From Sistotremastrum niveocremeum HHB9708 (taxonomy: Eukaryota > Basidiomycota > Agaricomycetes > Sistotremastrales > Sistotremastraceae): a DNA stretch of 64,000 bases. The notes beneath the pieces are model-generated. The model saw nothing but the letters and a program-made list of their open reading frames with translations. It was not told the DNA's origin and ran no database searches. Both the position numbers and the translations under genes were made by a program. Positions 25,946 through 33,339 of this stretch are shown in pieces. How positions within the stretch are numbered: the stretch's first letter is position 1; each line of letters opens with the position of its first letter. The stretch is taken from contig KV419394.1 in the NCBI GenBank assembly GCA_001630475.1, forward strand, positions 372,001-436,000, in the 5' to 3' direction.

Positions 25946-26865
25946 CTACCCGGGAGCCATATCCTGGTCCTCTTGCTCTTCCTGCTCTGCTTCTTGGAAT
26001 ACCAACGTCTCCCCCACTGCCTGCGTTTCGTCCACTGGCGCATCGACATCGCCCGATGAAACGCCCGTACGAGTTGAATTCCGAGGCTTTCGTTTACGAC
26101 CTTTGGCTTTGGCTTTGTTCCTGGGCTCAGAGATAGTAGTCTCTGGTTCTGGCTGAGCGTCCCCGATCCGTATAATGACTCGTAAGGCGGATTTGCTTCG
26201 CTTTCGTATCGTGATGTCTTCGTCTTCGTCCGCGGGCAGAACTTCGTCTTGAAGCTCTACGGACTCAGTCGTGATATCCGTATGGATCTCATCCGCAGGG
26301 AAGGGAAGAATGAGAGGGAGGGAAACGGCAAGCATGGTCAGATGTGGAATTGCTGCGCCCATAGCATATAACTGCAACACCTTGTAACTGCGCAAGTCAG
26401 AAACGTCAAGAGTATAGAACGCAAATATATGCACTCGTCTTCGACAAAAAGAGCCTTGCATTTGCGTAGATATGCTCCAAGTGGGGTTTTACGTGAGACG
26501 CATATCTTGTTTTTGCCTTCTTTGTGGGCAGATCGGGGCCCCGTCGCAGAGACAGAACGTGGCACAACGGGGAAAGGGCGTGGGGGTGCTAGCTTTCGTA
26601 TCTCAGCTTTCGGCGTGATCGTAGGTGTAAACTTGGAAGTTTTGAGAGGGCCATTCTGTGGCTCGACTAATTCCTCAGATTTTTTGGCTCGCATAGCTTT
26701 AGCCTGACGTTTCGTTTTCCCGTTCGATTTAGGAGGTGCATGTTTTGGGTTCGAAGGGCCTGCTGTTTCCTGTGGTGCAGGTAGTGATGTGGTTCCTTCT
26801 AGCCGAGCGCGTTTCGATGCTACCTGTAGATCAGGATCACCGTCCTGACTCTTTCGTTTCGCCAT
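25946..26865 (-). CDS. Alba-domain RNase P/MRP subunit-like protein (290 aa)
   Basis: Two exons (26865-26435, 26387-25946). The Alba fold is visible as VSRKTPLGAYLRKCKALFVED followed across the intron by YKVLQLYAMGAAIPHLTMLAVSLP, which matches the Rpp20/Pop7 and Rpp25/Pop6 families. These subunits bind the P3 stem of RNase P and RNase MRP RNA in the nucleolus and help tRNA 5' processing and rRNA maturation. Basic tails flank the fold; the C-terminal tail carries KAKGRKRKPRN, a likely nuclear signal, and an acidic end. Pop6 and Pop7 cannot be told apart by eye. It is transcribed divergently from eRF1, with 186 bp between the start codons. Confidence 0.72.
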
Positions 26866-27051
26866 GTTGTCGCAGTGCAGCAAGCAGCTCAAGAAGAGTA
26901 GACAATCCTACAGATGCGCTAAGCGATCGCCTGCCCTCAACACGCGCTTCGGCGGTATCGGTCTCTCGGAGCCGAGTCCGTCTTTTTTTCTTTCATTGAA
27001 TCACTCAATCCACCCTTTTCATCACCGCCTCGTGTGCTCCCCTCAATCAAG
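26866..27051. promoter_or_regulatory. Divergent promoter of the Alba-domain gene and eRF1
   Basis: Only 186 bp separate the two ATGs, so the genes share a bidirectional promoter. CT-rich stretches precede the eRF1 start, as is common for fungal housekeeping genes. No clear TATA box is seen. Confidence 0.6.
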
Positions 27052-28583
27052 ATGTCTCAAGACATGGCAGAGCAGAACATTCAGATATGGAAGATAAAGA
27101 AACTTATTAAGAGTCTTGATTCCGCCAGAGGGTACGCTGCACTGCTCGGAATCTTGCTAAATTGAGCTATGACGATGGCTGACCCGGTCCATTAGAGCTG
27201 GTACATCGATGATCTCGCTCATCATCCCGCCCAAGGTAAGCCTTTCCTATACCAGGTCAGATCGTACATGCTGATAGTCTCTCCAGGATCAGATATCGCG
27301 AGTATCGGGCATGTTGACTCAAGAATATGGCACTGCTTCCAACATCAAGTCCCGGGTCAACAGATTGTCTGTACTTGCAGCCATCACTTCCACTCAGCAA
27401 CGTTTGAAACTGTACAATCGTGTCCCTCCCAATGGACTTGTATTATTCGTCGGCACGATTTTGACGGACGAAGGGAAAGAAAAGAAAGTCTCGTTCGATT
27501 TTGAGCCCCATAAACCTATCAATACGTGAGTGATCCATCACGCGACTCTTGCCCAATCGGTCTCATTCCGCCTTATAGCTCTCTTTACCTTTGCGACAAC
27601 AAATTCCACACCGAAGATCTCTCCGCACTCCTCGAATCTGATTCCAAATTCGGCTTCATCGTCATGGACGGTAACGGGTCCTTGTTTGGCACTCTCGCTG
27701 GAAACACCCGTGAAGTCATTCACAAATTCACCGTTGACCTTCCCAAGAAACACGGTCGTGGTGGACAGTCGGCTCTCCGTTTCTCCCGTCTTCGTGACGA
27801 AAAACGTCACAACTACGTTCGCAAAGTAGCTGAACTCGCCGTCCAACATTTCATCACCAACGACAAAGTCAACGTTTCCGGCATCGTTCTTGCCGGAAGT
27901 GCCGATTTCAAGACGGAGCTCAGTCAGAGTGACATGTTCGATCCTCGTCTTGGCGCAAAGGTCATCAAGGTCGTCGACGTCAGTTATGGAGGAGAGAACG
28001 GCTTCAATCAGGCCATCGAATTGGCGGCCGAATCACTTGCCAATGTCAAATTCGTCCAGGAGAAGAAGCTCATCCAGCGGTACTTCGATGAAATCAGTCA
28101 AGACAGCGGAAAATACTGCTTCGGTGTTGAGGATACCCTGAAGGGTCTTGAGCTTGGTGCAATCGAGACGCTCATTGTTTGGGAAAATCTCGACATGACC
28201 AGATACGTTCTGCGAAACGCCGCTGGAGGTCCGTCACTTTTTTATTCTGGCATATGATCGTTCTGACACACTATGCAGAGGAAGTCCATGTATATGCCAA
28301 CAAAGAGACCGAAAAAGACAGGGAAAAGTTCATTGACAAGTCCACCGGTCTGGAAATGGAACAAGCCGGTGAACCCCAGTCCCTCCTCGAATGGTTCGCA
28401 GAAAAGTACAAAGAGTTCGGTGCCAACCTCGAATTCGTAACGAACCGATCTCAGGAGGGTGCACAATTCGTCAAAGGTTTCGGTGGCATCGGTGGGCTTC
28501 TGCGATACAAAGTCGATTTCACCACGCTGGCGACAGTCGACGAAGACGAAGACGAGTTCTACTCCGATGAAGATGCTATTTGA
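27052..28583 (+). CDS. SUP45: Eukaryotic peptide chain release factor subunit 1, eRF1 (437 aa)
   Basis: eRF1 reads all three stop codons in the ribosomal A site and triggers peptide release with eRF3. Five exons (27052-27131, 27196-27235, 27287-27525, 27579-28228, 28279-28583) give 437 residues, the usual eRF1 length. Stop recognition motifs are present: NIKS in exon 3 and YLCDNKF at the start of exon 4. The catalytic GGQ lies in [13 protein letters not shown]. The acidic C-terminus ends [10 protein letters not shown], as in other eRF1 proteins. The gene is complete and clearly functional. The stop is UGA followed by CGG, and the frame stays open for another 152 codons; see the next feature. 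It shares a promoter with the Alba-domain gene. Confidence 0.97.
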
Positions 28584-29042
28584 CGGTTTGGTGTGCTCCT
28601 TAAAGGGGCTGCCACTGCAGAGAACGCGCCGGGTCGTTGCGCTCCTCTGCAGCAGGAGGCACGTCCCAGTGTGGTGGCGGAGGAGTTCGTGCAAGAGAAG
28701 GACCAGGACCTTCTCGAGAAAGCGAAAGAAAGTCGGCACGCCGGGTTGAAAAGTTATCACGACGTCCATGCTGTTGGGTCAGCGATGCAAGTTAGCGGAG
28801 AATTGATAGCCGCGCTACGAATGAGTGTAATGATGTATACGAAGGCGTTTCGGTCAGTGTCCTCTTCACTTTCTGTATCTTCTGGTCTAATTTTATTCGC
28901 AGATACAGGCTCCTTGTTCTTGACCATCTCAACATTAGTTGCACGTTGGCCTGTAATTCTATCCACAGCCTATGTTTCGCGTTCTGTAGTTTCTCAAAGT
29001 CAATGTGAGGAGAGAGGGCTTTGTGATGTATTCGTTTACTAG
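28584..29042 (+). other. In-frame extension after the eRF1 stop (152 codons)
   Basis: Immediately after the eRF1 stop the same frame runs 152 codons to a TAG at 29040-29042. The stop context UGA-CGG is one of the known leaky type II contexts. The first ~90 codons look protein-like, GC-rich and hydrophilic, with helix-forming stretches such as EEFVQEKDQDLLEKAKE. The rest is more hydrophobic and AT-richer. It may be a readthrough domain, 3' UTR that happens to be open, or part of an unrecognised separate gene. Confidence 0.5.
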
Positions 29043-29352
29043 TAATTCTGTTGTTGTCTGTAGCTGTGAAATCAGTTTTTATTCTTGGTAGTCTGTCCTC
29101 TGTATCCGTTTCATGAAAGAGTTCTTGGCCATGCATGCGCATCTCATGCTCGAATTGCGCCGGAATATCATTTCATTCATCAGGCGCCTATGTCGGAAAA
29201 ATAGCGAATTTCTTATAAGGACCTCGCCAGCCTTACCGCCTTGTAAGCCCATCGTGAGGTGTGGATTACCCCATCATCAACGCTACCGCAAATCCTAATA
29301 AGGGGTGATTAGCTTGATTAGATACATAAGGGCGAAAGGTCTCCCTCATACT

Positions 29353-29498
29353 GTTATGATAGTGCGGTATAAGGCCTATCAATCTTCCTAATTAGAATAT
29401 TGTGAGGCTGATAAGATAGGATGCTGTTATAGTACTGCGGTATAATGTCCTTTAATTTTCCTCATTTGGATATTGTGAGGTTGATCAGATAAGGTTCT
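29353..29498. repeat. Diverged two-copy 73-bp direct repeat
   Basis: 29353-29425 and 29426-29498 align over their full 73 bp without gaps, sharing TGCGGTATAA and ATATTGTGAGG blocks. AT-rich and noncoding. Confidence 0.7.
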
Positions 29499-29822
29499 GT
29501 GAGCGCAATTTTAGCGTAGGTAATTCCCAACGCATCCACAGTCTGGATTGACTGTTTTGATTCACGAAGATTCATCTGTGAGCTTGAGAATCACCAGGGA
29601 ATCAGCGGCAGCCAGCGTCTCATTGTCAATGTTCAATTTTTTGGGTTGACGTGTTGAGTAGACAAGATATCAAAACATCATATACTAAGGAAGGCTTAAA
29701 ACGACGAACGTTTTGTGCTCGAGCAGATACTACCTTCAGAGACTCCAACAGAAATATGTCGTAATTTCTGCCAAATCGAGATGTACAACTGAGCTCCTTC
29801 CAGACGAGCGTATAGCGGCCGC

Positions 29823-32800
29823 TCAAATGGGGGTTTCTTCAAGGCGAAGGAAGATGTCGCCATCGGTCTGATCATTGACCAAGAAGTGCTTAGCCTTGCC
29901 GATCGCGGGAGGCATATGGCAGCTACGGATGATGGATGACATGTAGATGAAATGAGTGTCTCGCCGTTCTCGCATGACTCGACAGCGCTCAAAATTTGTA
30001 GCAGGGGTCCAGGAGGTAGGCTGGAAATAACGGACCAAGGCCAGGTCGAGGGGTGGCTTTGACTGATCATATTTCCAAGAGAAAACCGCCAAAATTCGAG
30101 CAAACCGTAATTCATTGTCATCCACCAGCACAGTGTCATACCGAGGATGTCCATTGAAAGAAGGGTTGCATCGAATTATGTCCTGTCGAACGCGAAAGTC
30201 CTCTTTTGATTCATAATTCACGTATGCACATCGATAGAACGAAAGCTAATTGTAGAATTAGAGAATGTAGACGAAGTCGTTGCCATTGTACATACCTTGA
30301 ACCACCCTTCGAACTCTGGTAACTTCTTGATTCCGTGATGGCCCAGAGCGAGATAATTCGCCAGCCGCATTGCGAGGTCTTTGAAGCCCGGCTGATCGGA
30401 GTTGGCAGTTTCAAATTGGTCCATAGTGAGTCTTGGCGAAACTTTCGAGCCTAATTTATGGTGATCGTTACAGTCGGGGACGATTGGTACTGAATCGATT
30501 GAAGGTTCATCAGTGTTCTCCGCACGTTCCGCAGCCCGAGCAGATTCTTCCTTTTCATTCGCAACCAAGGTCCAATCCATCATGTGTGCGATGACTTCAT
30601 GATTCTGGTCAATCTTTCCCATCTAGAATCGGGTTAAGTGAGCAGTCAAGATGTCGCAGTATATCAGAGCGCCTGACCTGAGCCTCGACGTTCTTGAAAT
30701 TTGTCTGGTTATGCGAGGCTTTCATTTCCGCGTTGTACCCTTCACCAGTCTTTGTAACATAGTTTGATGTAACACCTGCTCCTTTGATATCTTGAAAAAC
30801 ATGATAGCTTCCGTGGTACTTTGGGTAATCCAGAGAGAGATTTTCTTGTTCTGCAAGTATCTATTGAGTAGAGGAAGTGAGCCGAGGTGACGTCACCGGA
30901 ACAAGTTTCTCGCCTTGAACCAATAATCAAACTCACGCAGGAGCTTCTTCCCAAGCTCGATGCGGATATCAGTCATGACATGAAGGCCTATCAAGACGCG
31001 AAAACGGCTGTAAGCCCGGACAAGATGAACCCAGGGCGAATTCGGCGGCATGAGGTCAACGAGACAAAAGACCAAGTTCTATCCGCAAACGTCAGATGAT
31101 GAACATCTAGGGTGGATCAATCGCGATACAACAAACCTTGATGATATTGTATATGGTGTTTCCATCGGTGTACGATATATCCGTTACACGATGGAAATGC
31201 TTCAGCAAAGGATACCGAGGTAATTGGGAATACCTGAAAACAGCATCAGTCCTGATTTGGCGTGTCCTGCTTTTCGTCTCACTAACCTCTGATTCAATGC
31301 GGATTCCAATTTATCTTTCACGACTTTCTCCACGACCAACAAGAATATTTTTTTGCCCTTACCCGAGGTGTCATCCATGTGCAGAATATCATATCCCCAG
31401 CCTTTATACGGGCATGAGTTCCGCATGACCCAGAATGCATTCTATGAGCACATTTTAGATTGGATGTCGCTGATCAATGACCTTTTACCTTGATTAGATA
31501 AGTCCCGATTGCTTGCAGAATGTCGTTGCTTTCGTAAGCGAAGCGACATAGGCGGGCGTGAGCATAGGCCGCCGACATCTCTGCGCAAGTTCTTCGGGTA
31601 TAGTTGCCGGTGAGGTCGTGTTGCTGTTCATATGTAACATTGCATTTGGGGTCGGGGAAATCAGCATTGACTCCCCGGTTTAAGAGGGCGTATGTTGCTT
31701 CTTCGTAGTCCATGGAGTAAACTAAAATCCCAGGATAGCACCTCCGGACCACCTTGTCCCCACAGCGAACGGCCTGTCCGTGATGCGAAGCATTTCGCAG
31801 AGGATCTAGAATAACTTTCATGCTTGCATGATACATCATTCTTCGAACTGTAGCTCTTTTGTGCGATGAAGTTTCATCAAGTGAAGCCTCATCTTCGAGA
31901 TCTGGAAGCTGACTTTTATCAGAAGAGCCGAGAGAGTATTTGCGCAGCGCAACATTTACCACAGGAAGGTAAGCTATCAGAACACCACCTCCATTTCCAT
32001 TTCCATTCCTTATGACTGAAGGGAGAAAACCAGGGCGCATGATGACGGGGTGCAGGGAATATTGATTCGATACTTTGGCTTTGTCTGACCAGAAATGAAT
32101 TGGAAGGTAGCATCGCGGGATCGGTTCAGAACTATTTGGAGGCGATATGTCACTCTAATTGCCAGAAGTGTATTAGTAGAGTGAAAATGACGACGAGGGC
32201 AATGTACCTGATAATCCCACCAATTATCTCCGGTCTCAAGATCATCATATAATCTTGTACACGAATCTCCCTCATGCAGATACTTCCGGCACGGATACCA
32301 GTTTATCTTCGAAGCAAATATGGGATCAGTGACAAGGCTCTCGAGCCAATGCCATGCGTTTCGCAACACCAATGTAAACTTGAATGAATATTCTCCCGAC
32401 TTCACGCTGATCTTTTCCGTCCTGAACTGAAATTGCACGTTCATGAATAAATGGCAAATATTATCTGAATGGCAAGAAAGGCTTACTTCAGGAAACAAAA
32501 CCCGAGCCTTGGATAATACCAGCTCAATGTCCTTATGCGTTTTGAAGGACAGCGTGCAGCCCGATGTCCACTCTCTGTTCTCGTGCATTTCCTCCAACAG
32601 CTGATCAACGGCCTTGTTCTTTAGACGATTTGTTGTGACGAAATGAACAAACTTGAAGTCTCCTTTGGTGTCAAATGGATGCCATGGAAGACGATCACCG
32701 TGCACTGGGGGGAGCAAGTCTGCGTCGGACGAAGGTGGGATCGCAGCATCCTGATCAGCATTGCCAGACAACGGAATGATCTCGTCGGGCCGGTTTGAAG

Positions 32801-33339
32801 AGGGGTGCCATACTATCGAGATGAAACGAGCAGGATGATCTGATAGCGATGGATCACGACGATCGTGCTCAGGATGGGTATCGCTAGTCGTTTCTGCAAC
32901 AAAAGAGGTCTGAAAGTCAGACAAAATGGTGACAAACTCATGTCCCTTCGATTTATCACCTTCGCAACTCTCGTAGTCCTCTATGTTGTCTGGCCCCCGA
33001 TAATCTGACAGCCTGCTGGGATTATCTGAAGTCCCGTCGTCTGTTAAAGAGTGATCTGTGACGTCATTGAAACGCCGTCTTCGATCGTGCAGGAGGCTTA
33101 CTCGTTTCCTCAGTGAGATCCATCTCAACAGGAACAATAAATCCGCGGGGAATTTCCTTTGATATTGCGACCTTCTTGCTATTTGCCGGGTTTCTTGAGC
33201 AATAAGCCTTGTGACGCTTTATTCCGCGGGTAGCGAAGGAAGCCTGACAAAATGAGCAGACTGTTCGAGGATTGAGCCGGTGTCCTGTGTATGAAGCCTG
33301 TGTGACTCTCTTCTTTCCCGCCTTTTTGTTCTTGGCCAT
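29823..33339 (-). CDS. Plavaka-type DNA transposase (or host protein derived from one)
   Basis: A transposase-like gene of about ten exons. Exons checked: 33339-33102, 33055-32487, 32426-32208, 32154-31489, 31441-31287, 31233-31137, with the rest to 29823. It opens with a C2H2-like finger (CSFCQASFATRGIKRHKAYC). The core resembles basidiomycete Plavaka proteins: WHWLESLVTDPIF, RLYDDLETGDNWWDYQ, PIHFWSDKAKVS, LIAYLPVV, YHASMKVILDPL and GDKVVRRCYPGILVYSMDY. The tail has GYDILHMDD and a C-terminal FARILAVFSW block. Frame and splice sites are intact throughout; one intron near 30910 seems to use a GC donor. I see no clear terminal inverted repeats, so it may be a domesticated copy. DDE residues cannot be assigned by eye. 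Confidence 0.72.

Follow-up and report, generated by a model that had tools for sequence, protein, structure and literature searches.

Two described circuits link the expression of the release factor eRF1 to stop codon readthrough and nonsense-mediated decay (NMD). In Neurospora crassa, Kurilla et al. (2020, FEBS Letters) reportedly established by experiment a circuit in which readthrough of eRF1 acts together with NMD elicited by a 3'UTR intron, and similar circuits are said to have been suggested there for many fungi. In plants, the eRF1 mRNA of Arabidopsis carries an intron far out in a long 3'UTR; at high eRF1 levels the mRNA is subject to NMD, whereas at low levels readthrough occurs and the mRNA escapes (PMC11062462, in its passages on Nyiko et al. 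2017). The eRF1 gene of the basidiomycete studied here, located in a window of 64 kb (the whole stretch of DNA that was analysed), has in common with the plant circuit an intron, in our case predicted, that lies in the 3'UTR far downstream of the stop, and here, too, low eRF1 is predicted to spare the mRNA. It differs in kingdom, and its extension frame crosses a single predicted intron of 50 nt. With the N.crassa circuit it would have in common, judged by the title of that report, the same two elements, readthrough and 3'UTR-intron NMD, in a fungal eRF1. However, N.crassa is an ascomycete for which the report is experimental, whereas the present circuit is predicted from the sequence of a basidiomycete gene.

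The sequence-only reading of this DNA had held that such a loop was described in plants and that a basidiomycete case would be new. The plant circuit exists as stated, but with the Neurospora report the loop is not restricted to plants, and a further case in a fungus would be of a known kind. Among the open-licence papers listed, no title refers to an eRF1 loop in basidiomycetes, and a printed report elsewhere is possible; the available part of PMC9661723 contains nothing on the 3'UTR of eRF1 itself.

The coordinates of the gene and of the features at its 3' end are given in Table 1. All three Pfam domains of the protein (eRF1_1, eRF1_2 and eRF1_3) were detected in the exons by profile search. 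The spliced 437-residue protein aligned with PDB entry 1dt9, presumably the human eRF1, from query residue 5 to 434 and chain residue 7 to 435 of 437 (E 6.5e-212). This alignment is nearly end to end, and thus the TGA at 28581-28583 is the ordinary end of eRF1 and not a sequencing accident. Elsewhere in the genome, eRF1 domain 2 was matched once more, on contig 3; we take this match to be Dom34/pelota. When the eRF1 exons were used as the query, one Heimdallarchaeum locus and no fungal locus was found in a collection of genome contigs, and no locus in a collection of viral contigs.

Table 1. Features of the eRF1 gene and its 3' end (positions in the window)
Feature	Position	Strand	Basis or remark
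eRF1 gene, ATG to TGA, 437 aa	27052..28583	+	splicing, Pfam domains, PDB alignment
eRF1 CDS introns (four)	27132-27195, 27236-27286, 27526-27578, 28229-28278	+	splicing yields 437 residues
TGA-CGG stop context, type II readthrough motif	28581..28586	+	sequence; motif as defined in the available text of PMC3542737
Readthrough frame, first part, 269 nt (89 codons + 2 nt), open	28584..28852	+	chance of openness 0.022
Predicted 3'UTR intron, 50 nt, GTCAGT donor, CTAAT branch site, CGCAG acceptor	28853..28902	+	motif scan
Spliced readthrough frame, second part, ends with TGA 29006-29008	28903..29008	+	124 extension codons in all
TAG closing the unspliced readthrough frame, 152 codons	29040..29042	+	sequence

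Some observations concern the surroundings of the gene. Divergent from eRF1, the minus strand carries an open frame of 189 codons, counted from stop to stop (26338-26907), with a lysine-rich part; a Pfam search with it gave nothing above the cut-off. This frame and eRF1 may have a common promoter region. Between the 3' end of eRF1 and open frames on the minus strand lies an imperfect tandem repeat with a period of 73 and 1.9 copies (29351-29491). A minus-strand frame of 402 codons (32013-33218) matched the Pfam Plavaka transposase (E 3.1e-9); going by this match, a relative of DNA transposons is present a few kb downstream of eRF1. A Plavaka transposase is in keeping with a basidiomycete, and so are the short introns.

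Directly behind the eRF1 TGA stands CGG, and without splicing the frame then continues for 152 codons up to the next in-frame stop; on both points the sequence confirms the earlier reading. That reading had also considered UGA-CGG to promote readthrough. According to the available text of PMC3542737, the type II readthrough motif consists of UGA followed by CGG or CUA and is known from viral sites, with which eRF1 has the complete UGA-CGG hexamer in common. By this definition the eRF1 stop belongs to type II. Its leakiness, in contrast, we infer from the motif, and the core of efficient readthrough in Ustilago maydis is a different one: UGA-CU, where the two bases that follow the stop are decisive (PMC4207609, where CGG is not named in the main text). 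The U.maydis case resembles the present one in that UGA-C is read through in a nuclear gene of a basidiomycete, the eRF1 stop also being UGA-C. Yet its product carries a PTS1, whereas eRF1 has UGA-CG and no PTS1.

In the genome sample used for all counts (264 kb, i. e. the 64-kb window and the first 200 kb of contig 1, in six frames), CGG follows 136 of 10,796 TGA. The ends of three control genes, located by eye, were UPF3 with TAG-ATG, Mago with TAA-AGG and Dom34 with TAA-CCA, followed by 23, 6 and 13 open codons, respectively; none of the three resembles the 3' end of eRF1.

In most viral type II cases an extended stem-loop has been proposed that begins about 8 nt 3' of the stop (PMC3542737, available text). 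At the eRF1 stop no structure of this kind was found by folding against shuffles: four stretches with their start at the stop or just behind it folded no better than shuffled sequences (z -0.34, -0.07, -0.87 and -0.26). A perfect inverted repeat of 8 bp (28615-28622 / 28645-28652) was considered as a stimulator and dismissed, since 28610-28660 and longer stretches did no better than shuffles, up to the whole 269 nt with its z of -0.26. A search of 28400-29400 against Rfam gave a single match below threshold, to mir-3155 on the minus strand (19.7 versus a gathering threshold of 70 bits). Splicing that skips the stop was also rejected, as no site of the intron motif extends across 28581, within the limits of that motif.

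The stretch before the predicted intron is free of stops in the readthrough frame only; the other two sense frames hold six and two. If spliced at the predicted intron, the extension reads RFGV...TKAF-RYRL...SKSM, crosses the junction and ends at a stop 103 nt beyond it. The frame is open past the junction site irrespective of whether the predicted intron is spliced or retained. To estimate the chance of such openness, each stretch was resampled 20,000 times with a first-order Markov model. The 152 codons of the unspliced frame were open in 0.095% of the resamples, the 124 of the spliced frame in 0.45% and the 89 pre-intron codons in 2.2%. Coding on the opposite strand is not favoured as the cause, because each of the three antisense frames contains at least one stop (codon scores 0.019, -0.067 and -0.046).

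In the 264-kb sample (six frames), at least 152 open codons follow 179 of 20,243 stops, and at least 89 follow 787. Similar counts were made for the ends of long frames, and are rough because some of these ends are stops inside introns. Among 115 coding-shaped frames of at least 150 codons, one ended in TGA-CGG, six had 89 or more open codons behind the stop and one had 152 or more; for all 185 frames of at least 150 codons the numbers were three, ten and two.

The first ~90 extension codons had been described as protein-like before, a limit that coincides with the predicted donor after codon 89. Over these 89 codons the GC content of the three codon positions has a coding-like pattern (0.69/0.42/0.57, compared with 0.55/0.35/0.57 in eRF1), and a codon score as high as that of the extension was reached by 0.7% of the open resamples. 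But the codon score does not discriminate well. The extension scored 0.009, slightly less than one antisense frame of the same stretch (0.019), with means of 0.070 for coding windows and -0.049 for wrong-frame windows, and the distributions overlap: 27.8% of 97 wrong-frame open windows scored as high and 17.6% of 210 coding windows as low. For this reason the score was kept out of the support for the loop. By thirds, the pre-intron extension scored 0.02, 0.138 and -0.137, and the part after the intron -0.128, i. e. non-coding over codons 61-124; the other two sense frames of the stretch scored -0.196 and -0.171. The protein-likeness is therefore weak and may have stop avoidance as its only source.

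If the extension were coding in earnest, readthrough could yield a functional eRF1 isoform with a new domain or a targeting signal at its C-terminus. The GC pattern of the first 89 codons agrees with this, and the readthrough isoforms of U.maydis provide a precedent (PMC4207609, available text). Against it stand the non-coding score of codons 61-124 and the lack of any match of the 88-residue extension in Pfam or PDB (E up to 1 in both searches); the one Pfam match of the unspliced 152-residue extension (E 0.18) was considered to be due to chance. In a DNA search that skips very common words, neither the extension nor 28581-29700 was found a second time in the genome. The two possible ends were compared with the peroxisomal PTS1 motif. 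Both KSM, the spliced end, and FVY, the unspliced one, are unlike this signal, and with UGA-CG the stop also departs from the UGA-CU of fungal peroxisomal readthrough. We thus regard a functional isoform as very improbable. Probably the extension does not serve as a domain and is a by-product.

The predicted 3'UTR intron, which begins 269 nt after the stop, had not been noticed in the sequence-only reading. It was found by a scan for a GTNNGY donor, a CTRAY branch site and a YAG acceptor within 44-66 nt. In 27001-29400 this motif occurs four times on the plus strand, at the first, second and fourth CDS introns and at the 3'UTR site, and not at all on the minus strand; it is incomplete, as it misses the third CDS intron. 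In the 264-kb sample (both strands) 168 sites were counted versus 68.5 expected from Markov-3 resamples in a plain consensus count, which corresponds to a chance of about 0.055 per 425 nt of one strand. The weak point of the 3'UTR site is the C at donor position 3. GTCNGT sites numbered 17 versus 9.9 expected and GTCNGY sites 29 versus 22.1, so close to expectation that by donor class alone about 40% or fewer would be real. The fourth CDS intron of eRF1, which is fixed by the protein alignment, has a GTCCGT donor and thus the same GTC start. The length of 50 nt is near that of three of the four CDS introns (50, 51 and 53). An unsupervised weight matrix for introns placed the 3'UTR intron at the 85.7th percentile, but was contaminated, as its flat length distribution indicated, and was not used; a stricter training set left too few introns. 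If one also considers where the site lies in the transcript, the frame that stays open and the circuits already described, it is in our judgement quite probably a real intron.

How often the whole arrangement occurs was counted over 20,255 stops of the 264-kb sample. Separately, TGA-CGG or TGA-CTA was found at 216 stops, an intron motif 50-400 nt downstream at 1,820, and a spliced frame open at least to the junction at 249. All three together were found at two stops: eRF1 and one other site with the donor 62 nt from the stop. At the ends of long frames, the joint pattern was present at one of 1,920 (at least 60 codons; this one is eRF1), one of 568 (at least 100 codons) and none of 185 (at least 150 codons). 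The last frame of eRF1 has 143 codons and hence is outside the latter class. Multiplication of the separate rates predicts about 2.7 joint cases, so that with two found there is no genome-wide enrichment.

These counts bear on the possibility that nothing is regulated here and an ordinary TGA-CGG stop happens to precede a 3'UTR in which one frame has few stops and a sequence resembles an intron by accident. None of the elements stands out by itself, whether CGG after TGA, 89 open codons or the intron motif; most GTCNGY sites are no more than chance, the joint count sits at the multiplied rate, the codon score is ambiguous, and RNA structure is absent in comparison with shuffles. Yet for one named stop the joint rate is about 1 in 10,000, and the gene that has the pattern is the very one whose regulation by this circuit is reported in plants and in Neurospora. 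As there is no enrichment in the genome, the weight of the argument rests on this position at eRF1, a gene with precedent. We consider coincidence a doubtful but serious alternative.

For NMD to act on this mRNA, its machinery has to be present. Profile matches in the genome were obtained for UPF1 (E 2.5e-69), UPF2 (3.9e-15), UPF3 (7.7e-9) and Mago (5.8e-15). The SMG1 family search was silent in the genome and in the controls alike and is thus uninformative. Under the 50-nt rule of junction-dependent NMD, the relevant junctions are those beyond about 50 nt downstream of the stop. With 269 nt, the predicted junction would be well beyond this distance for a ribosome terminating at the eRF1 stop. 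That the rules of NMD in basidiomycetes are not simple is indicated by Cryptococcus neoformans, where 98-99% of the intron-retention events were not raised upon deletion of UPF1 (PMC5006051, available text).

The same machinery and the same distance would also suit another arrangement, in which the mRNA is subject to NMD because its 3'UTR intron is real, for constitutively low expression or for a response to global NMD activity, and readthrough is too weak for eRF1 to be sensed. The emphasis on UGA-CU in the readthrough data of U.maydis fits this as well. However, it leaves unexplained both the UGA-CGG and the frame that is open over the junction (89 codons, P 0.022), and appears improbable to us.

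We lean towards the interpretation that the 3' end of eRF1 is an autoregulatory module of readthrough and NMD like those of plants and Neurospora. The predicted intron would be spliced, and an exon-junction complex would remain downstream of the normal stop, at a distance of over 50 nt. With eRF1 in plentiful supply, ribosomes would terminate at the UGA upstream of the junction and the mRNA would be directed to NMD. If eRF1 became scarce, some ribosomes would insert an amino acid at UGA-C and translate on, thereby stripping off the junction complex and shortening the effective 3'UTR. The mRNA spared in this way would survive and eRF1 would be restored. The sensing step would be the rise of readthrough as eRF1 falls. 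A C after UGA favours the binding of near-cognate tRNAs (PMC12233894), and readthrough increases in yeast when eRF1 is inactive (PMC8087045; available text of both). An eRF1 loop that senses readthrough and is coupled to NMD had already been proposed for this gene. As a mechanism it is partly supported, and better than could be seen at that time, because the predicted 3'UTR intron and its crossing by the readthrough frame had been missed.

What is probably new is a basidiomycete member of the eRF1 loop with a UGA-CGG switch, as far as the gene structure tells. Tentatively, UGA-CGG could be the switch of the loop's sensor in Agaricomycetes more generally, with the frame kept open only far enough to clear the 3'UTR junction. 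The loop would then either predate the split of ascomycetes and basidiomycetes or have arisen again within the fungi.

If the interpretation is right, the mRNA of the release factor itself monitors stop codon recognition in a mushroom-type fungus, in addition to a mould and plants. The age of the loop and its possible repeated origin could then be examined across fungi from genome sequences alone, by asking three questions of each eRF1 gene: whether its stop is UGA-C, whether its 3'UTR has an intron and whether a frame is open across that intron. The gene would also be a natural reporter for readthrough of UGA-CGG in basidiomycetes.
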